From a virus: a DNA stretch of 24,189 nt. The stretch spans positions 1-24,189 of the IMG/VR virus record IMGVR_UViG_3300030117_005644; one strand, given 5' to 3'. Made by a program: the position numbers and the translations under genes. Position 1 is the stretch's first letter, and each line of letters opens with the position of its first letter. The notes under the pieces are model-generated. The model was not told the origin of the DNA. It was given only the letters and a program-made list of their open reading frames with translations, and did no database searches. Of the stretch, positions 10,445-24,189 are shown one piece after another.

Positions 10445-11947
10445 ATGAACGAAACAGAAGGAAATACTAGTGCAGTAGTGCACAATATAAGAGCCGCAAA
10501 AAGAGCCGTTAGTACGGTTAAGACGACATTAGGTCCAATGGGAATGGACAAAATGATGGTAGATGGTGGAGGTAACGTCATAGTAACTAATGATGGGGCT
10601 ACTATCTTGCAGGAGTTGGATATTAGCCACCCTGCTGCAAAGATGGTAGTAGAAGCCGCCAATACCCAAGAAAGTATGTGTTATGACGGTACAACCAGTA
10701 CAGTTGTATTAGCAGGAGAATTACTAAGTAATAGTGAACTCCTGTTCAATAAAGGATTACATGCTAATATAATATGCAGAGGATACAGAAAAGCATCAAA
10801 ATGGGCAATTGAACATCTTGATACTTTAAAATACTCTTTTGATGCCATTGAAGGTGGGTTAAAGCATGTAGCCAAGACTGCAATTACAGGTAAAGCGTTA
10901 GAATCTAGCATGGACCATGTAAGTGAACTATGTGTAGAGGCTGTAGAAAAGGCAGGAGGAGAATATGAGAGAATACGTGTATTGTGTCAACCGGGCGGAA
11001 GCCTTGACGACTCGTCTTGTTTTTCAGGCGTAGTGTTACATAAAGAGTTCATGTTATCTGCTATGCCTTTGGTACCTAACGGTAAAGCAATATTAATTAA
11101 CACTGGTTTAAGTGATATTAAATCTGATGATAATGTACAATTATCACTTAGTTCTGCTACAGAATATCAACAATATAAGAAGCAGACAGGTAGGGATAAT
11201 TGGATAGAAAAGGCTCAAAGTATAATAGAAAAGTTACCTGATGGTGGTGCAGTATTCGTTAGAGACTCTGTTCATGAAATAGTAGCAGCAACCCTTGCGA
11301 AAAATGGAATATCTGTAGCACACCGTATACCTGAAAGTGATATGATAGCATTGTCTAAACTCCTTAATGCTGTAGTTTCTCACAGTACTGAAGATTTGTC
11401 AGATGCTACAGATTGTAACGCAGAATGTAAAACAATAGGAGATATGAAATACATTATCGTTAAAGGAGAAGGAGAAGTGACTACTTTAATCTTAAGAGGA
11501 GCAACTAGACAAACACTCGATGAAACTGAACGTGGATTTGAAGACGCATTAGGGGTCGTTTGCTTGGCTTACTTCGGATTTGTAGTTCCGGGAGGAGGCT
11601 CTTCTTATCTAAACACAGCCTTACATCTAAGGTCTAGGGCAGCAGAGGCTGGTGGACGTGAGCAAATGGCAATAGATGCCTTTGCAGATGCATTAGAATC
11701 TATACCTGCTACTATTGCAGAGAACGCTGGTCATGACCCGCTAGATAGTATATTAACACTTAGAAACGAACATAAACAAGGTAACATTGATGCAGGTCCA
11801 GATATAGAAAATGGAGGTGCCTGCTCTATGATTGACGCAAGTGTATGGGAACCTTTAGATTTAGTAAAACAGGCTATACAGTCTGCTAGTGAAGTCACTA
11901 TAAGTATACTGAGAATAGACGATATAATCGGAAAAAGAGGCGAATAG
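10445..11947 (+). CDS. Group II chaperonin (thermosome subunit)
   Basis: A 500-aa ATP-dependent protein-folding subunit that should assemble into a double ring. Equatorial motifs are plain: TTLGPMGMDKMMVD (28-40), VTNDGATIL (47-55; D50), YDGTTSTVVLAGELL (80-94; D81) and, near the C-terminus, VVPGGGS and AGHDPLDSILTLR. The EDALGVV motif that holds the second catalytic Asp in chaperonins is present before the GGG turn. It is about 40 residues shorter than typical thermosome subunits, and Tyr80 stands where the family has Gly (GDGTT). Viral thermosomes are known from magroviruses; this gene is the main reason for that comparison. A GAGAGGG site precedes the ATG. It may fold virion proteins or replace or modify the host chaperonin. 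Confidence 0.93.
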   Translation: MNETEGNTSAVVHNIRAAKRAVSTVKTTLGPMGMDKMMVDGGGNVIVTNDGATILQELDISHPAAKMVVEAANTQESMCYDGTTSTVVLAGELLSNSELLFNKGLHANIICRGYRKASKWAIEHLDTLKYSFDAIEGGLKHVAKTAITGKALESSMDHVSELCVEAVEKAGGEYERIRVLCQPGGSLDDSSCFSGVVLHKEFMLSAMPLVPNGKAILINTGLSDIKSDDNVQLSLSSATEYQQYKKQTGRDNWIEKAQSIIEKLPDGGAVFVRDSVHEIVAATLAKNGISVAHRIPESDMIALSKLLNAVVSHSTEDLSDATDCNAECKTIGDMKYIIVKGEGEVTTLILRGATRQTLDETERGFEDALGVVCLAYFGFVVPGGGSSYLNTALHLRSRAAEAGGREQMAIDAFADALESIPATIAENAGHDPLDSILTLRNEHKQGNIDAGPDIENGGACSMIDASVWEPLDLVKQAIQSASEVTISILRIDDIIGKRGE

Positions 11948-12070
11948 ATGAGATGCGAACTTTGTCATAGACAAAGCGCTGAAAGTGTAGGGATATACTG
12001 TGGTGAACATAAAATATGTATGCCTTGTATTTCTAAATTAATTAAAGATGCTTTGTTATCACTTAGTTAA
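11948..12070 (+). CDS. 40-aa zinc miniprotein at the end of the + block
   Basis: The ATG follows the chaperonin stop with no gap (TAG-ATG). Cysteines C3, C6, C18, C24 and C27 plus H21 form a compact CxxC...C-x2-H-x2-C-x2-C cluster like a truncated RING or treble-clef finger, followed by a short amphipathic helix. It is the last gene before the convergent boundary. Function unknown. Confidence 0.7.
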   Translation: MRCELCHRQSAESVGIYCGEHKICMPCISKLIKDALLSLS

Positions 12071-12071
12071 G

Positions 12072-12089
12072 TTTATAATATAATAATAT
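12072..12089 (+). promoter_or_regulatory. TATA-like tract ahead of the structured intergenic element
   Basis: An 18-nt run of A and T only, starting TTTATAAT. It is the most TATA-like stretch near a gene-free region in this window. If used as an archaeal TATA box, transcription would start about 25 nt downstream, near 12100, just where the first strand of the long inverted repeat begins (12102). It could equally be plain AT-rich spacer after the chaperonin operon. Confidence 0.3.
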
Positions 12090-12101
12090 ACCGAAATGTT
12101 T

Positions 12102-12222
12102 GTCCGTACTTAATGTTTCAATAGTAATTTTTATTCGTTGCCACCCCTACGAAAGAAAATTACTGGGTGTAGGAGTAGTACGGACGGGTGATTTCACCTT
12201 CGTTATTGTGCTCCTACACCCA
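12102..12222 (+). ncRNA. Candidate structured RNA or DNA element with nested and competing stems
   Basis: The gap between the convergent gene blocks holds these pairings. The outer stem is GTCCGTACT (12102-12110) with AGTACGGAC (12177-12185). The inner stem is AGTAATTTT (12123-12131) with AAAATTACT (12156-12164), capped by TTCGT (12134-12138) with ACGAA (12149-12153). An alternative 12-bp stem joins 12164-12175 to 12211-12222 (GGGTGTAGGAG with CTCCTACACCC) and encloses a small GGTG/CACC hairpin (12187-12198). The inner loop CACCC (12142-12146) could also pair with GGGTG (12165-12169) as a pseudoknot. All pairings are perfect as read. Options are a bidirectional terminator, a regulatory RNA or a replication origin. 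No protein frame and no tRNA pattern fits. Confidence 0.5.
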
Positions 12223-12227
12223 CCTAA

Positions 12228-12473
12228 TTATTTGGCTACTTTCCTGAGATAATTGGAAAAGCGACCTGTGCCTTTTTTAGATACAGGCGATTGCTTCCTT
12301 TTTCTTACACCTTTGAAACCCAATTGACCATGAAATCGGAGATATCCACAGAATGAACATTCGTGAAGAACTACAAATTCTCCACTTAAATATTTACCAG
12401 AAATAGAACGTGGTAAAGCGATGCGTTTACAATTCTCGCATTTTTGTTTAAGCATATCGATAAGTCTACCCAT
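12228..12473 (-). CDS. 81-aa zinc-ribbon protein at the end of the virion block
   Basis: A basic protein with two CxxC knuckles (C12/C15 and C39/C42) spaced as in a zinc ribbon, and a Lys/Arg-rich C-terminal half (RKRKQS and similar). I start it at the ATG ending at 12473, which overlaps the previous stop by one base (TGATG) and has GGTGAG upstream. A TTG three bases earlier is possible but less likely. It could be a DNA-binding regulator or a minor structural protein. The sequence does not decide. Confidence 0.75.
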   Translation of the reverse strand: MGRLIDMLKQKCENCKRIALPRSISGKYLSGEFVVLHECSFCGYLRFHGQLGFKGVRKRKQSPVSKKGTGRFSNYLRKVAK

Positions 12474-13678
12474 CAACTACTCACCGTGTTTAGATTCAAT
12501 TTATGCCAATCTGCACCATCGTAAACAAATCTACCTGACTCGCCGTTAGCAACGTCTTGGTTAATTTTAGTGTTAGTACTGTGACCTCCACTTGTAGAAT
12601 CGAAGTGCAAAGTATGTGCACCGGATTTATGATAAATTTCAACAACATGACCTACTGGAAAAGTACCAGTTGGGTTGATAGTTCTGGTAGCATCTGTAGT
12701 AACTATCCATATATTCGCTTGGTCAAATGTGAATGTAACATTGCCACTAGTAGTTATTACTTCTAGTCTATCAGGGCCAATTACATGAGTATTAGTCGAA
12801 GGTGTGGAATTTAATGCACGAGGTAATGCTGCGTATATTAGTGCGTGTTTATTACCCGCTACATCTGCTCTATGACTTTGCCATATAGCACCGAATGTAC
12901 TACCTGATAAATTTCCATTTTCAGGAGATGCAAAGAACCCGTCTAAAGTAGCAGCGCTATTGATAGCGTTTGCTGTATCTACATTTCCCACAGCCCCTTC
13001 TGTCATAGGAGTCAAGTAAAGGGGAGTAGGTCTAATGAAAGTACGCCTATCATGAATAGTAGCGGTTGTACTTAAAGAACTAGTAACAGAGCCAGCGCCG
13101 CCGGTTACAGTGTATCTTATGACTGCTAATACTGTAGTTTGATGGTTAAGGTCACTATTACCTGTGATATTAGGGTCAGAAAGAAATCTATTAGGAATCA
13201 AAGGGGTTCCAGAAGATGGAGCGACAGGTGTACCCATTTCGTATTTAACATGAGCCTCTGGAGTATTTCTACCAGTCAAATATACTACTACAAACACTTC
13301 GCTATTACTTGCAGGGACACTAGGTAAATCACCACTATGATTAGCACCTCCTCCTGTAGTACCTACTGTGAAAGTTTCACTACCTCCGGGTCCATTAGCA
13401 AATTTATACAAAACTCCGTCTAAACAACAATACCCGCCATAAACTTTAACTTCACCTTGACTAGAACCTAGTTCTATAAAACCGGGGCCTCCAGCAATTA
13501 TACTGTTTCTTAAAGAATCTGCTTTGGCACCATCTTCTAATCTCATTATACCGTTACCATGAAGACCTTCGTATAGATTAGTAAGGCTCGGACTTGTTAA
13601 TCCATCGCCGTCTCTTAGACCTTGAGCGTTAGTACCCATAGAACTTGCACTTGTATGTCCTGCTTTTGGATTAGTCAT
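12473..13678 (-). CDS. Tail-fibre-like structural protein
   Basis: A 401-aa protein rich in Gly, Ser, Thr and Asn, with alternating short beta strands and no transmembrane segment or enzyme motif. Residues near 77-100 form a GGYCCLDGVLYKF beta motif, followed by a VFVVVYLTG strand. The C-terminus ends FVYDGADWHKLNL, close to the YDGTDWHKL-type ending common in phage fibre or receptor-binding proteins. Its position downstream of the hub-like gene suits a fibre or tail-tip decoration that contacts the host. The ATG overlaps the preceding stop (ATGA), with AGAGGTGA at 13683-13690. The specific role is inferred. Confidence 0.6.
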   Translation of the reverse strand: MTNPKAGHTSASSMGTNAQGLRDGDGLTSPSLTNLYEGLHGNGIMRLEDGAKADSLRNSIIAGGPGFIELGSSQGEVKVYGGYCCLDGVLYKFANGPGGSETFTVGTTGGGANHSGDLPSVPASNSEVFVVVYLTGRNTPEAHVKYEMGTPVAPSSGTPLIPNRFLSDPNITGNSDLNHQTTVLAVIRYTVTGGAGSVTSSLSTTATIHDRRTFIRPTPLYLTPMTEGAVGNVDTANAINSAATLDGFFASPENGNLSGSTFGAIWQSHRADVAGNKHALIYAALPRALNSTPSTNTHVIGPDRLEVITTSGNVTFTFDQANIWIVTTDATRTINPTGTFPVGHVVEIYHKSGAHTLHFDSTSGGHSTNTKINQDVANGESGRFVYDGADWHKLNLNTVSS

Positions 13679-16365: not shown

Positions 16366-19300
16366 TCACTCCCCACTATGGTCTCCTGTATTATAAGATG
16401 CATCCCCTTTGCTACCCTTTGGATGTAGTGTCTGGCTGTGTCTTGGCTGCACAGCGTAATCACCTTCATCATCATCTACAGACCTTCTACTAGCGTCTGC
16501 TCTAAAGTGCTCAAGAGTGTTTTCAGACATGACTACTCTGGCAACAGGCGAGCGAACATCAGTTTTATCATAACCAGTCACATCGACTCCTTGAATCTTA
16601 GGTCCTTGACTATCCGGTGCATTTGGAGAACTTGGGTCAACTGTATAGACTGGTGCATATGGAGGACTACTTGGAGTACCTGTACGTGCACTTGGAGCGT
16701 CACTTACAAACATACCATATTTACCTCCAGCGGTAGCCCGATAAAAGTTAGCACCTACTTGTGGACTGCCTGCTTTTAGAGTAACGTAAGGTCTAAACAT
16801 CTGAGTATATTTATAATCTAAACCATAAGTCGGCCTGTATAAAAATTCTATAGTATTATCAGAATAATTGATATTTTCTAAGATTGGTTGTTGATGATTA
16901 GTATCTTGATAAGGGTTGGAAGAAGAAGTTACACTCGCTTTACCCCATCCCTTAACATCAAGGTTACCTGCATACCTACTCCACTCCATAACATAAGTTC
17001 CACCTAATGGCCATAAAGCATGGGCGTTAGAATGTTTAACAACGCCTACAACTGGTTGACCTACCCAATTCAAAGCAGTCATATCTAAATCCTTTAAAGT
17101 CCTATTACCGGTATCATGAGCCCCTCTAATATTTGTTCTCTGACCTACTTCTCTATCAGTGTGTAAACTGGTCGCTTCTGTGGACATAACTACATATTCA
17201 CGTGAAGTACCGTCATTTAATTCAGCAATTGTATCCACGTCTAAACCGAGCCTTACATCATCTCTTGAAACAGGCTCAGCACCTCTAGTATCAGCATTAA
17301 CTGTTTCAAATCCTTCTCCAACATGTGCACTTGGTTTCAAAAGACCGTCATCTGAATTAAGGTCAACTCTGTCACTAATTCCCCTTTCTATTTCCCCAGA
17401 CTGTGAAGTCAAATTACTTGGCCTAACTAGACCTTGTCCGAATACTGGTTCTGATGTACTATGAGATAACACTAGTCCTGTAGCGTCATGTTCTTCACTG
17501 ACATCCATAAGCATACTTTCGTTAAATACAGTAGGCCATCTTACACCTCTACCGTCACCTCTGTCTCCTACTCTTAAAGCACTAGCAGGGTTAAACCAAT
17601 CAGCGGTTCCCATATTAGTTCCGTCGTTATTTACAGTATTAGCGTGTCCACTATGAGCATCAGAAAAGTCACCACCACTAAATCCAGAAATAGTTGTTTG
17701 ACTTATGTCATCGGTTACAGTAATGTTTCCACCATCGCCCAATTCAGCCTGTGTTAATGTAATGTATTGTACCCCGTTTGCTTCCGTTGGTACAGTAGAT
17801 ACTATAATTTTCCCATTATGGCCATTTGCATGTTCTATTGCCGCCTTGAGTTGTACTAAAAATGCATTTTGCGTAACAGCACTGCCTGTTAAATCAATAG
17901 TTACTGCTACTCCAGTACTAGTAGCAGTAGTACTACCTACATCAGTAGAGCCGCTTGTTACAACATCACCTGTAGAAACAGTAGAAGCATTATCATCTAC
18001 TATGATATAATTTTTAACAGTACCGTCTGTTGATGTAATTGTTATCTTTTCATTTTCTGACATACCGCTTGCTGCATCACCATCAGCCACAGCAATAGTA
18101 GCGATAGCAGCGACTCCGTCGAATATATCATTCACAGAAGGTCTGTGTGTGACATTTGTATCTAAATAAGCGTCTTCTGGGTCCCATGCAGGTCTAATAC
18201 CAAAACCTCTTACAGGGAAACGCCTGACATCTTCACCACGTGTATTACCCCACCAATCGACCATATAATATTGATGAGCCTGAGCCAATTCTGATACTCC
18301 TTTACCTGTATCGTCACCCGGATATAGTTTCTTTATCGTAGCGTTATTTCTTAAGGTTCTAACAGGGCAACCGAATGGACCAGTCATACGACGACCATCA
18401 CTATATCTTACTTGACGACCAATTTGGTCTTGTCCAAATAATGCAGAAATTTGAGTTAATCTTTCTAATATACCTACATATAATGCACTGAAATCGACAT
18501 CGCTTACACTAACATCTGCACCTACATAATCCCATCCACTTATACCTCCTGTAAATCCAGCAAGAGTAGTCTGAGATATATCATCACTTATTGTCCTATT
18601 ACCTAAATATCCAGCAGTAGCCTGTGTAAGTGTGATTGCTTGGGCTCCATTTGCCTCAGTAGGTACAGATGAAACAGTGATTTTACCATTGTGACCATTA
18701 GCGTGCTCTATTGCTGCTTTTAACTGTACTAAGAAGGCATTTTGTGTAGAAGCGCTACCTGTTAAATTAATCGCTACTGCTATACCACCTGCAAGTGCCG
18801 AGCCAGCAGTACTTGCTCCTGTATCTGAACTAGCAGTTAGTATGTCTCCTGTAGCAACAGTAGTAGCGTTATCGTCTACCAATACATACACTTTAGATGT
18901 ACCATCTGTTGATAAGATAGTCATACTTTCTTTCTCTGACATACCACTTGCTGCATCACCATCAGCCACAGTAACAGTAGCAGTAGCGGCCACTGCTCCT
19001 GCCCTACTGTCATGTTGAATAAGAGGACCGTGATAATAACCTAACAACGCATTACTGTTAGCAACCTCTAACCAACCTCTAACATAAGGTGACCAACGAG
19101 GACGATTATACGCCTGCCTAACGCTCATTCTATAACCAAAGCATCTGTATCTGTCATTTGGATTACTTCCGCCTGTAAATTCGTCTAAAGTTTGTATGGC
19201 CACTCCAGTAGAATCTTTATAAGTTTCACAATCCATGCCATATGTATTACTACCCCAACCGATTAAAGAATGACCATATGATTCTAAACGACTAACTGCT

Positions 19301-22300
19301 CCTCCACCACGAGAGCCTCCCGGCCAAAAACCTGAAAAGTTATACTTAGTACTAAGGTAAAGTGCTTCATTATTAGTTAATATTACATTAGTACCCCCAC
19401 CAATAGTAACTGAATTAGTAGCAACTGCTGTAACTAAACCTACATTAACTCCGTATTGATTATAAACTCTGTCACCAACGTGATATTTAGTATTAGCATT
19501 TACAGTGTCTGTAGCAAGTGCAGAAGTAGTACCGGCAGCATAAGTATTAGAGCCACCAGATGGGTGGTTGATGAGGACACCACTAGTAACTCCACTAGGG
19601 ACAGTTCCACCTTGATGATATAATACAGAATCTAAATCTATAACACTAGAAGTATGTGCTAAGCCGTCTGCTACATTAGTAGGTGAAGTACCTCCGCCCG
19701 GCGGAACTATCCATTTCATTGCAAGTCCAAATGGACCCTTGCTTGAGACATAATTGAAATCTTGATAGTGGATAGTTTCGAAATGTTCAGGTATATGGTT
19801 GTAACCCTTTTTATCCAAAGGAGTATCTGCAACTCCTGTTTTATCATAGAAATTACGTGTACCGCCATCAGCAGAATCACTGTACCATGTAAATGGCCTT
19901 CCTAGATTTGGATGCCACATGCAAAGGAATGCATCAGGTAAGTGTAAAGAATTGGTATCCCTGCTTCCGTTAGCAAGTTGAGGTAAAGGTCTAGTCGCTA
20001 TACTGGTAGAAGAGTCAGTGTAGATAGAGTCAGCGGGGCTATTATCGTAAGGTCTACTTAACTTCAAAACTTGACCTGTTGCTAAATTACTCCAAAATGC
20101 AGAATTTCCACTAACTCCTGAAAACTTAGTACTTTCTCCTAAAGTAGCATGGGCCAAAGTACCTGTTCTGTTAGAATAAGTCGCTGTATGTCTTATTCCA
20201 TTCTTTGTATATTCTAATACTTCGCCATAATAAGGTACAACAGGGAATAAAGCGTTATCATCTACTGTTATCTCATTACTACTATTATGAGATATTACTA
20301 CGCAATTAGGATTAAGGCTTCTAATTCTTTTATGAGGTTCATATATATCAATAAAACTAGTAGGGTAACCTGCTAAAGTTATCTGTGCTCCTATACATCC
20401 ATAAGACGCTCTGCACAGTTCGTAATAGTTATCAGGTTTATGCCATTCTAAGTGCCTCCACTTTTGTGCTGATGTTGCTGTAGCACCATCTCTATGAAGA
20501 ACACCCCACCAAGGAATTGTAAGCGTATATCCGGGAGTAGCGCTAGTAAACATACCCGGTCTATATGGTAAACTTCTACGGCTGAATGTAGGACTAGATG
20601 TTTCTTGTACTCCAAGTGGATTATACAAAGCAAGTGGAGGTAAATTAGTAAACTGACTACCTTCGTCAGGCTCTATATCAAGAATTACTTCGTTAATGAT
20701 GACTTCACACCCTCTTACATCAGCCATCATTGCTTCTGCTAATATAAGAGCATAAGCCCCTCTAGTACTTACATCCCTTTCTATAGCAATCACTGTATTC
20801 ACTTGTTGTCCTGTTAATTCAGTAACCTTATCACCAGATTCACTTGGTGCTTTAGTTTGGTCACTGTGATTTTGATGAAAACCTTGTAATTGCTGTTTGA
20901 ATACATTTGGCTGAATAATAATCTGATAAGCACCTACTTCCAATGGGTCAGGGAAATGGTTATTTTGTGTATAAGTAGCAGCCGCTTCTAAAACTAAAGT
21001 GTGCCCGCCTTGTGCGTTTATAGTACCTGCATTACTTCCAGAACTAGCAGCGATACCATACCCTTCATATTTCACTTTAGTCTCAGTTAAAAGAGTAAAA
21101 GCACCTCCGTGTATATCACTTGGTCTAAATGCAGCCGTAGGGGTTGAAAACCAAATTAGAGGGTCCCTACCCGGCTCTTTGTCAGTTATTGTTTCGTAAC
21201 CACTAACATCACCTAACCTAGTGGCTTCAAGAGCGCCGATTAAATCTTCACTAATTGGCTTTTGATTAGACGCTTGACAAGCATAATGAGAATTATATAA
21301 TCTCTGATAAGCAGGATGAGCATAATGACCGGGCATCATAGCCATAGTAGGAGTAACGTAATGATGCCCCATTCTAGGAATAGGCATGGGTGTCATTTTC
21401 ACTTTATTGAGTATAAAATCAGTAGGTACGGAAGTAGCAGTCATAGCGCCTGTACTAGATGGTAAATTATCGTACATAGTAAACCAATCTATTTTCTTCA
21501 TATCTGGACTCGCACCGCTGTATTCACTATGGTCACGTAATCTACGTGATGCGAACATACGAGTACTTCCAGCGGGCATATAATAAGAGGGTACTACTTT
21601 CAATCCTGTTTTTCCAGTAACAAATGATACAAAGTCTGGACTGTAAACTACTCCAGTGAACTTATTTGTTCCTATTCCAGTATAAGATGCTAAAACACCT
21701 TTATCTGTATTAGGGTCATATACTCTTAAGAAATACCTACCTCCACTTTGTTCAGTAGTGTCTGTCCAAACCGTAGAAGAAGGATTAGTTGTTACATTAA
21801 TCTCTGTACCTGAATAACTAGAATAAGTTAATTCATTTGAATCATAACGATGAGTCATACTTACTCCCATTCTAGTTATATGGAAATTTAAAGTTCTGTC
21901 ATGCGGCTCATAAGATGTCTCTAATGGATTATCACCAGTATGTGAATTCCAACCTTCAACCGAAGATGCAGGGAATTTTAATCTTGTATTACTATTAGAA
22001 GAATTAACGTCTTCTCCATCTTGACTAAGATGTTCCCAGCCGTTATTTTCCCAAGTAGGCCAAAGTCTAGGACCAGAATAAGTATTTTCAAACATATTTT
22101 TAATCTGAGCAATGCTCTGAGCCGGATGTTGTAAACCACCAGACCCAAATGTTTCATTTTGATACCCTTGTATACGGTCAAATCCAGACCTAACGATAAT
22201 GTTTCCGGGAATTTCATCAGCATTTGGTAATCTTATTCTGAGGTTAGGATTTACTCCAGCATTAGCCAAAGCAGGAGATAAACCTTGTACGTCTCTATCA

Positions 22301-24189
22301 CTTATGTGCCTAAAGTCCATAATGACAGTACCTAACGGAGAGCCTCCTTCTAAGCGATGCTCTTGACCAGTATCGTCTGTCACTTGCATACTCTTAAATT
22401 GCTGGTCTTCATTAGGGATTAACAAAGCGTTTCTAATTTCTAAAGGATGTTTTTCTGATAACTGAGGATGACCTAGTTCTTGTGCTTGTATAATCGGGAA
22501 CATGGCTGCATTGGTTGTCTCAAAAGAAAATCTTACATTCCCTAATATTTTTTCTCCATAAACATAACTTGTCTGAGTACCATAAGGTATACGAGTTACC
22601 CAAGGAACCATTCCAAGCCCTCTAGCGTTAGTAGCGGGCATGGTAAGGCTACCCCCATCCATCCTCTTCCAAACTACATGCTCGGCTGTAAAGTTTCTTG
22701 CAGAAGACCGCTTAGCATAGAAACCAAATAAACCAGTATGAGGATAAGAAACATCTTCTAAATCTGCAATATTTAAATAATCAGTACTACCCTTGACACC
22801 GATACATTCTACTGAAAGAGCAGAAGCACCTTCATGGAAATTAGATGTTTTCATTATACTTTCATCCCAAAATAAATCACCCGTTGCATAATTACAAGCG
22901 GTTATATCAGCCATATCTCCACTTTGTATTTCTCTGTGCCATTGAGCGTCAGAAGGAACTGAATTTGCATTAGGGTAATCGTCCGCTGTAGTAGGTCTAG
23001 CAAAAGCGGAAGGAACTTGTGCATCTACATGAGGCCCAGCAGTGGCAGGTCCAACGTATCTTGATTTATTATGTACTTTATTAGTATCCCAAGCAGTAGT
23101 ACCGGCATTTGTCCAAGTACCGCTCGTTGCCCTTAGTTCTAAGAAATCTCCTGTACAACTAATTCCATATTTATCAGCCTTCGCAATAAGTGGTAGTTCA
23201 CTTTCGTGAGTAATTGCAATTAAATGTCTACTTGATAAACCATTAACACAATAATCAGGATAAACTACATTAGCAGTAGGAGTTTCATCATTAGCGACAG
23301 TTGAGCCACCCGATACACAAGTACTAGCAGCACCATAAGGAGAAAACCCTAAGAAAGGATGCCAAGCGCCTAATCCAGCAAAACTTTTACCAAGTGTAGT
23401 TAAAGAAGAATCAACAGAATTGAAATAAGAATAAGCCTCTCCATGCCAACCAACAGCACCTATCGCTTTAGTTCTATCAACTGCATCGATATAACCACTA
23501 AAGTGCACGGCGCACATATGATTTCTTGCAGCACCGTCACTAGAATTATTATGACGATGGGTACTTGATTTAGTCCAAATATAAGCCTTATAATCACTAG
23601 TTACCGAAACCTTTCTATGAGTATTAGGATTAACGACATCTGTTGTATTAGTTACACCGTTCACTCTGAAAGTCGCATTGCCACCTCCACCAGAAATAGT
23701 GATTAAGTCATTATCGTCATATCCTGTGCCGGGATTATTAATAGCAACTCCAGTAACTGCCCCTGTACTAGTAGTAGTATTCACTGTTAACCCTGTACCG
23801 GAGCCGCCTGTAGTAGCAACACCTGTACCATCACTATATCCACTACCTCCACTTATATTATCGGCTCCTGTCGGAGTAGCACTTACTGGACTTTTGCACA
23901 AAGTTATAGTTGTGTTAGGAGCACTAATTGATAATCCGTTATAAGGAGCATAACCGCTTTCTGTACCATTACTAACTCTAACCCAACCATAATCTGGTAA
24001 AGTAGTAGCAACATTAGTTACTACCAAACTCGCAGCAGAGCCGCCGTGCGCTGAATAAGAAACAACAGGTAACTCTACCCAACCGTATCTATCTTGTTTG
24101 TGAGCATTTTGCATTGATGGCATAAACGTACCACCAATTGCTTTCAACGGGTCTTTTCCGGGGAAAGTGTTAATCGCCGCACTTATGAT
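16366..24189 (-). CDS. Giant beta-rich virion protein, open at the right edge (partial)
   Basis: At least 2607 codons. The frame continues without a stop from an internal TTG at 24147 through 14 more codons to the window edge, so the true start lies outside. The sequence is rich in Gly, Ser, Thr, Asn and aromatic residues, with almost no coiled coil or membrane segment, so it is not a tape-measure type. It carries a GSGY-rich repeat near the visible N-terminus (23660-23861), a VGDRVYNQYG strand module (19345-19485), and two ADGDAASGM modules (18544-18993 and 17671-18115). The last 100 residues are charged and His/Ser-rich. It lies immediately before the hub-like gene, so a tail-tip, adhesin or baseplate wedge role is likely. 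No catalytic motif was noticed. Confidence 0.75.
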   Translation of the reverse strand: MISAAINTFPGKDPLKAIGGTFMPSMQNAHKQDRYGWVELPVVSYSAHGGSAASLVVTNVATTLPDYGWVRVSNGTESGYAPYNGLSISAPNTTITLCKSPVSATPTGADNISGGSGYSDGTGVATTGGSGTGLTVNTTTSTGAVTGVAINNPGTGYDDNDLITISGGGGNATFRVNGVTNTTDVVNPNTHRKVSVTSDYKAYIWTKSSTHRHNNSSDGAARNHMCAVHFSGYIDAVDRTKAIGAVGWHGEAYSYFNSVDSSLTTLGKSFAGLGAWHPFLGFSPYGAASTCVSGGSTVANDETPTANVVYPDYCVNGLSSRHLIAITHESELPLIAKADKYGISCTGDFLELRATSGTWTNAGTTAWDTNKVHNKSRYVGPATAGPHVDAQVPSAFARPTTADDYPNANSVPSDAQWHREIQSGDMADITACNYATGDLFWDESIMKTSNFHEGASALSVECIGVKGSTDYLNIADLEDVSYPHTGLFGFYAKRSSARNFTAEHVVWKRMDGGSLTMPATNARGLGMVPWVTRIPYGTQTSYVYGEKILGNVRFSFETTNAAMFPIIQAQELGHPQLSEKHPLEIRNALLIPNEDQQFKSMQVTDDTGQEHRLEGGSPLGTVIMDFRHISDRDVQGLSPALANAGVNPNLRIRLPNADEIPGNIIVRSGFDRIQGYQNETFGSGGLQHPAQSIAQIKNMFENTYSGPRLWPTWENNGWEHLSQDGEDVNSSNSNTRLKFPASSVEGWNSHTGDNPLETSYEPHDRTLNFHITRMGVSMTHRYDSNELTYSSYSGTEINVTTNPSSTVWTDTTEQSGGRYFLRVYDPNTDKGVLASYTGIGTNKFTGVVYSPDFVSFVTGKTGLKVVPSYYMPAGSTRMFASRRLRDHSEYSGASPDMKKIDWFTMYDNLPSSTGAMTATSVPTDFILNKVKMTPMPIPRMGHHYVTPTMAMMPGHYAHPAYQRLYNSHYACQASNQKPISEDLIGALEATRLGDVSGYETITDKEPGRDPLIWFSTPTAAFRPSDIHGGAFTLLTETKVKYEGYGIAASSGSNAGTINAQGGHTLVLEAAATYTQNNHFPDPLEVGAYQIIIQPNVFKQQLQGFHQNHSDQTKAPSESGDKVTELTGQQVNTVIAIERDVSTRGAYALILAEAMMADVRGCEVIINEVILDIEPDEGSQFTNLPPLALYNPLGVQETSSPTFSRRSLPYRPGMFTSATPGYTLTIPWWGVLHRDGATATSAQKWRHLEWHKPDNYYELCRASYGCIGAQITLAGYPTSFIDIYEPHKRIRSLNPNCVVISHNSSNEITVDDNALFPVVPYYGEVLEYTKNGIRHTATYSNRTGTLAHATLGESTKFSGVSGNSAFWSNLATGQVLKLSRPYDNSPADSIYTDSSTSIATRPLPQLANGSRDTNSLHLPDAFLCMWHPNLGRPFTWYSDSADGGTRNFYDKTGVADTPLDKKGYNHIPEHFETIHYQDFNYVSSKGPFGLAMKWIVPPGGGTSPTNVADGLAHTSSVIDLDSVLYHQGGTVPSGVTSGVLINHPSGGSNTYAAGTTSALATDTVNANTKYHVGDRVYNQYGVNVGLVTAVATNSVTIGGGTNVILTNNEALYLSTKYNFSGFWPGGSRGGGAVSRLESYGHSLIGWGSNTYGMDCETYKDSTGVAIQTLDEFTGGSNPNDRYRCFGYRMSVRQAYNRPRWSPYVRGWLEVANSNALLGYYHGPLIQHDSRAGAVAATATVTVADGDAASGMSEKESMTILSTDGTSKVYVLVDDNATTVATGDILTASSDTGASTAGSALAGGIAVAINLTGSASTQNAFLVQLKAAIEHANGHNGKITVSSVPTEANGAQAITLTQATAGYLGNRTISDDISQTTLAGFTGGISGWDYVGADVSVSDVDFSALYVGILERLTQISALFGQDQIGRQVRYSDGRRMTGPFGCPVRTLRNNATIKKLYPGDDTGKGVSELAQAHQYYMVDWWGNTRGEDVRRFPVRGFGIRPAWDPEDAYLDTNVTHRPSVNDIFDGVAAIATIAVADGDAASGMSENEKITITSTDGTVKNYIIVDDNASTVSTGDVVTSGSTDVGSTTATSTGVAVTIDLTGSAVTQNAFLVQLKAAIEHANGHNGKIIVSTVPTEANGVQYITLTQAELGDGGNITVTDDISQTTISGFSGGDFSDAHSGHANTVNNDGTNMGTADWFNPASALRVGDRGDGRGVRWPTVFNESMLMDVSEEHDATGLVLSHSTSEPVFGQGLVRPSNLTSQSGEIERGISDRVDLNSDDGLLKPSAHVGEGFETVNADTRGAEPVSRDDVRLGLDVDTIAELNDGTSREYVVMSTEATSLHTDREVGQRTNIRGAHDTGNRTLKDLDMTALNWVGQPVVGVVKHSNAHALWPLGGTYVMEWSRYAGNLDVKGWGKASVTSSSNPYQDTNHQQPILENINYSDNTIEFLYRPTYGLDYKYTQMFRPYVTLKAGSPQVGANFYRATAGGKYGMFVSDAPSARTGTPSSPPYAPVYTVDPSSPNAPDSQGPKIQGVDVTGYDKTDVRSPVARVVMSENTLEHFRADASRRSVDDDEGDYAVQPRHSQTLHPKGSKGDASYNTGDHSGE
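16369..16374 (-). promoter_or_regulatory. Ribosome-binding site deciding the hub-like gene start
   Basis: GGGGAG on the minus strand, five bases before the ATG at 16363. It overlaps the alternative GTG at 16369, which argues against that GTG. Confidence 0.6.
17671..18115 (-). repeat. ADGDAASGM module, copy 3 (in the giant protein)
   Basis: Same unit, with LKAAIEHANGHNGKIIVSTV and DISQTTISGFSGG endings, at about residue 2011-2159 counted from the TTG at 24147. It is separated from copy 2 by about 140 residues of unrelated sequence. Confidence 0.85.
18544..18993 (-). repeat. ADGDAASGM module, copy 2 (in the giant protein)
   Basis: Same unit as copies 1 and 3, with LKAAIEHANGHNGKITVSSV and DISQTTLAGFTGG endings. 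It lies at about residue 1720-1868 counted from the TTG at 24147. Confidence 0.85.
19345..19485 (-). repeat. VGDRVY strand module (giant protein)
   Basis: About 47 residues: VGDRVYNQYGVNVGLV, a TNSVTIGGGT strand and an NNEALYL end. Counterpart of the module at 14573-14716. Confidence 0.6.
23660..23861 (-). repeat. GSGY-rich beta repeat (giant protein)
   Basis: Two tandem units: GGSGYSDGTGVATTGGSGTG and a degraded second unit NPGTGYDDNDLITISGGGG, ending FRVNGV. Matches the pair in the hub-like protein in order and spacing. Confidence 0.75.

Follow-up and report, generated by a model that had tools for sequence, protein, structure and literature searches.

A dense inverted-repeat element between the convergent gene blocks of a magrovirus-type virus record: a candidate small structured RNA gene

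Magroviruses are viruses of marine Poseidoniales in which the replication and morphogenesis modules are opposed to each other (PMC12999244). Transcription termination in archaea has been described as U-tract dependent, with aCPSF1 (PMC8716108). The window analysed here comprises the 24,189 nt of virus record IMGVR_UViG_3300030117_005644 (positions 1-24,189). Its plus strand genes include a B-family DNA polymerase, a PD-(D/E)XK nuclease, an ERCC4-type nuclease and a thermosome gene, and the opposing minus strand block holds structural-type genes. Because magroviruses likewise combine such genes with opposed modules for replication and morphogenesis (PMC12999244), the gene content fits a magrovirus-type virus of Poseidoniales. 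The DNA polymerase is only ~25% identical to haloviral polymerases, and no annotated phage records resembling the junction or the thermosome gene were found. An open frame of 2607 aa on the minus strand (16366-24189) runs off the end of the window; PHROG offers no more than a weak match (head closure), and the product is probably a very large virion protein.

The last conserved gene of the plus block is the thermosome (Cpn60/TCP-1) gene (10445-11947, plus; PF00118, E 3.5e-129), and the last gene of the minus block is an 82-aa zinc-ribbon-like ORF (12228-12476, minus), which has 32 relatives in IMG/VR. Between them lie a 40-aa zinc-finger ORF (11948-12070, plus) and the element itself (12071-12227), in which all the pairings listed in the original prediction are present. 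Helix P1 is formed by GTCCGTACT (12102-12110) and its perfect complement AGTACGGAC (12177-12185) with nine Watson-Crick pairs, and the entire stretch 12102-12185 is an imperfect palindrome. Hairpin A (12123-12164, loop GCCACCCCTA) is part of the predicted fold and consists of an outer stem of nine Watson-Crick pairs (12123-12131/12156-12164), a U12132.G12155 pair followed by an A.A mismatch, and an inner stem of five pairs (12134-12138/12149-12153), i.e., 15 pairs, one of them U.G, over 16 positions. Helix P2 joins TGGGTGTAGGAG (12164-12175) to CTCCTACACCCA (12211-12222) over 12 bp, and the small hairpin P4 (GGTG ATTT CACC, 12187-12198) has a stem of 4 bp (12187-12190/12195-12198). Hairpin A and P2 cannot both be complete because each claims base 12164. 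The loop sequence CACCC (12142-12146) is likewise able to pair with GGGTG (12165-12169).

Of 3000 dinucleotide shuffles, 0.03% contained a stem of at least 12 and 0.17% two stems of at least 9, while a 12-bp stem with another of 9, or three of at least 9, did not occur at all (0/3000). In the rest of the window only one other place has as many as two such stems. The folding z of the element is -5.7 on the plus and -4.3 on the minus strand. Of 806 segments scanned along the window, plus and minus strand included (mean -0.29, sd 1.14), the top three all fall within the element. It is the window's most structured 125-nt stretch, with z of -7.4 and -6.4 on the plus strand and -4.5 on the minus strand. 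The original prediction of a dense structured element between the convergent blocks is correct.

P1 and P2 cross and are thus not simple nested partners, as had been pointed out. The 3' strand of P1 is enclosed by P2, the crossing helices are separated by one base and hairpins occupy both loops, as in an H-type pseudoknot; such a pseudoknot is possible as judged from the modelled helices. The nested fold has an energy of -45.8 kcal/mol, and hairpin A with P2 and P4 in the absence of P1 one of -37.0 kcal/mol. Adding P1 to the latter combination with an assumed penalty of ~9 kcal/mol, we estimate the pseudoknot to be approximately equal in energy to the nested fold, and energy therefore does not choose between them. 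Of the "switch-like" character attributed to the element there remains the possibility of two states, which crossing helices of near-equal energies allow, and nothing beyond it. A leader switch is not at hand, since no same-direction gene comes after the element. No Rfam family matches the element at gathering score, and the order of its parts presumably differs from that of HDV-like ribozymes.

The comparison with relatives covered loci in which the thermosome genes reach 77% identity or more, together with more distant ones. Near-group loci have convergent thermosome and 82-aa genes, like the window, and the element is absent from ~50 relatives whose junctions have these flanking genes. The gap between these two genes ranges from 6 to 1154 nt and contains nothing, small ORFs, or a tRNA-Arg(UCU). 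It measures 6-24 nt in 17 relatives, in several of them just 6-9 nt, eight others carry a tRNA-Arg(TCT), and most other near-group junctions harbour small ORFs. A tRNA scan of 41 magrovirus-type records returned eight with one tRNA each, in every case the tRNA-Arg(TCT) at the junction. The nearest junction, that of locus L055, has the zinc-finger ORF in common with the window (50% identity) and lacks the element. Its zinc-finger stop codon is followed almost directly by the 82-aa gene, a near-empty site, and this identifies the ~150 nt with TATA-like box and element as extra in the window. The convergent junction is an insertion or cargo hotspot, bounded on the left by the thermosome gene and on the right by the 82-aa gene, with the zinc-finger ORF in the cargo site. 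A required terminator or a conserved switch is incompatible with relatives whose two genes sit a few bases apart. The proposal of a conserved viral regulatory RNA likewise fails, as the same-flank relatives examined have no such pairing and miss the element altogether.

Two further features of these junctions were observed. Upstream of their cargo ORFs, six relatives have a common motif resembling TTTAAGTATAGTATGGTATACC, in which a palindrome comes after a TATA-like box, and variants of this motif occur in three more; this suggests a common regulated promoter for hotspot cargo ORFs. Among the more distant loci, the thermosome gene is followed directly, on its own strand, by a gene for a partial relative of the 82-aa zinc-ribbon protein; this small gene has therefore switched sides of the junction.

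We tentatively interpret the element as a lineage-specific small structured RNA gene, an optional cargo in the hotspot of a magrovirus-type archaeal virus, and rate this interpretation at slightly below even probability. The viral RNA of the original prediction accordingly stays the best candidate, though not as a conserved regulatory RNA. The TATA-like tract ahead of the first stem strand is present as TTTATAATA (12072-12080, plus), its centre ~26 nt before that strand, and occurs in the window once on the plus and never on the minus strand; it is a putative promoter. In these viruses, TTATAA and TATATA show ~10-12 fold enrichment at ~-35 relative to intergenic starts. Transcription would proceed on the plus strand from this box and start near 12102, where P1 begins, to yield an RNA of ~120 nt (~12102-12222). 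The ends of this RNA would be held in P1 and P2, either in an H-type pseudoknot or in two side-by-side hairpins, and the product may be a stable RNA acting in trans. The plus strand reading is favoured on the basis of the modelled folds, because fold scores are stronger on this strand and because the single U.G pair of hairpin A turns into an A.C mismatch on the minus strand. No clear terminator was found after 12222. A 50-aa TTG frame running through the element (12100-12252) is unlikely to be coding, given its antisense overlap with the 82-aa gene and the dense inverted repeats.

None of the homolog searches retrieved the element elsewhere. A covariance model built from the single sequence found no match below E 0.8 in 86 records (85 virus, one Altiarchaeales MAG), an empty answer that is weak given the limited reach of such a model. 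The exact P2 stem pattern has 0 matches in IMG/VR. The exact P1 stem pattern has 19, all of them in unrelated repeated sequences that look coding and differ in spacing (96 nt). Three single probes against IMG/VR recovered only sequences without flanking structure or magrovirus genes, and the 40-aa zinc finger together with its L055 relative as query found only the contig of L055. A literature search on noncoding RNAs with pseudoknots in archaeal viruses yielded nothing of use.

The main rival to a small RNA gene is an element serving the 3' ends of the two converging transcripts, be it back-to-back termination, protection of the RNA ends or avoidance of collision, which we regard as unlikely. 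It accounts for the location between two convergent operons and for T5 on the plus strand (12128-12132) and TTTTCTTT on the minus strand (complement of 12151-12158) within 30 nt; these T-runs inside hairpin A would act as archaeal U-tract terminators on both strands, with the hairpins protecting the ends. However, relatives with the same two genes and a gap of 6-24 nt have no such element, and U-tract termination requires neither a GC-rich 12-bp helix nor a crossing P1. The T-run moreover sits in the rising arm of a hairpin and not 3' of a stem, a bacterial-type stem with T-run is lacking, and the one weak terminator-like site is hardly more than chance predicts (0.7). The bidirectional terminator initially envisaged is hence disfavoured as a required part of the junction, several relatives having gaps of 6-9 nt, and survives as an unlikely role in this particular virus.

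A possible link connects the element to the tRNA gene of related viruses. After U12164, P2 opens with GGGTGTA, identical to acceptor positions 1-7 of the junction tRNA-Arg in locus L017, and its 3' end TACACCC-A differs from the acceptor 3' strand TACGCCC by one change; the element therefore possesses a 7-bp acceptor stem matching the junction tRNA-Arg. Compared with the local tRNA-Arg genes, hairpin 12165-12222 obtains a score of 12.5, a value reached by 0/1155 like-sized hairpins from these viruses (mean -5.3, sd 3.8), with most of the similarity coming from the stem and the interior alone being marginal (p 0.04 to 0.26). Local alignment of element and tRNA-Arg is unremarkable, as equally high scores are reached by 4.7% of window segments, and a tRNA-Arg covariance model aligns the acceptor stem only (7.2 bits; E = 4 over the window, 0.03 within the junction). 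The element is no tRNA: the cloverleaf of acceptor, D, anticodon and T arms is absent, ARAGORN reports 0 tRNA genes in it and no Rfam tRNA match was obtained. The tRNA comparison was picked after the resemblance had been noticed, and we consequently keep descent from a tRNA as a suggestion, and an unlikely one. The small RNA gene would then possibly have originated from the tRNA-Arg(UCU) gene present here in related viruses, with an extended acceptor-like helix retained.

That the element is instead a decaying, functionless relic of this gene we consider improbable. Its position is that of the only tRNA of these viruses, and the one-change acceptor stem and the hairpin-matched test point in the same direction. 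A relic is, however, expected to lose its pairing, whereas pairing in the helix is perfect and extends over 12 bp; T arm and anticodon arm are missing, the in-stem interior similarity is marginal, and P1 and hairpin A are left unexplained. A more elaborate scenario, in which a Poseidoniales virus remodelled the tRNA-Arg gene into a pseudoknotted RNA with an acceptor-like helix, a mimic or decoy directed against host tRNA enzymes or translation, would be a long shot.

The presence or absence of ~150 nt between otherwise matching flanks, together with the imperfect palindrome, could also reflect an inverted repeat inserted at the DNA level, such as a mobile-element remnant, a recombination site or a protein-binding site. 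This has a low probability: no second copy was seen in either the window or the relatives, nor any target duplication, and a related magrovirus family reported to be without integrase (PMC12999244) likewise counts against a mobile DNA element. A replication origin, to which the cumulative GC skew peak at the element might point, is extremely improbable, because the skew change follows gene direction: of seven element-free relatives checked, six show a sign flip at the junction (the exception falls from 0.03 to ~0). The element itself is also not conserved.

If expressed, the element would be a small structured RNA of marine archaeal viruses that are abundant and uncultured. It sits in the hotspot that hosts their only tRNA, and this hotspot is a useful place to seek host-interaction genes in magroviruses. 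Among known systems, archaeal U-tract terminators resemble the element in lying between convergent operons with T-runs on both strands, but they do not need the dense GC-rich structure, which is absent in the relatives. The junction tRNA-Arg(UCU) of related viruses is, like the element, an RNA cargo between the thermosome and 82-aa genes and shares with it the acceptor stem GGGTGTA/TAC(A/G)CCC. In contrast to this tRNA, the element has no anticodon or T arm, bears P1 and hairpin A as extra parts upstream, and spans 58 nt from acceptor to discriminator base as opposed to 72-74. With H-type RNA pseudoknots that carry hairpins in their loops, the element has in common two crossing helices, here of 9 and 12 bp with one base between them, and hairpins that sit in both long loops.
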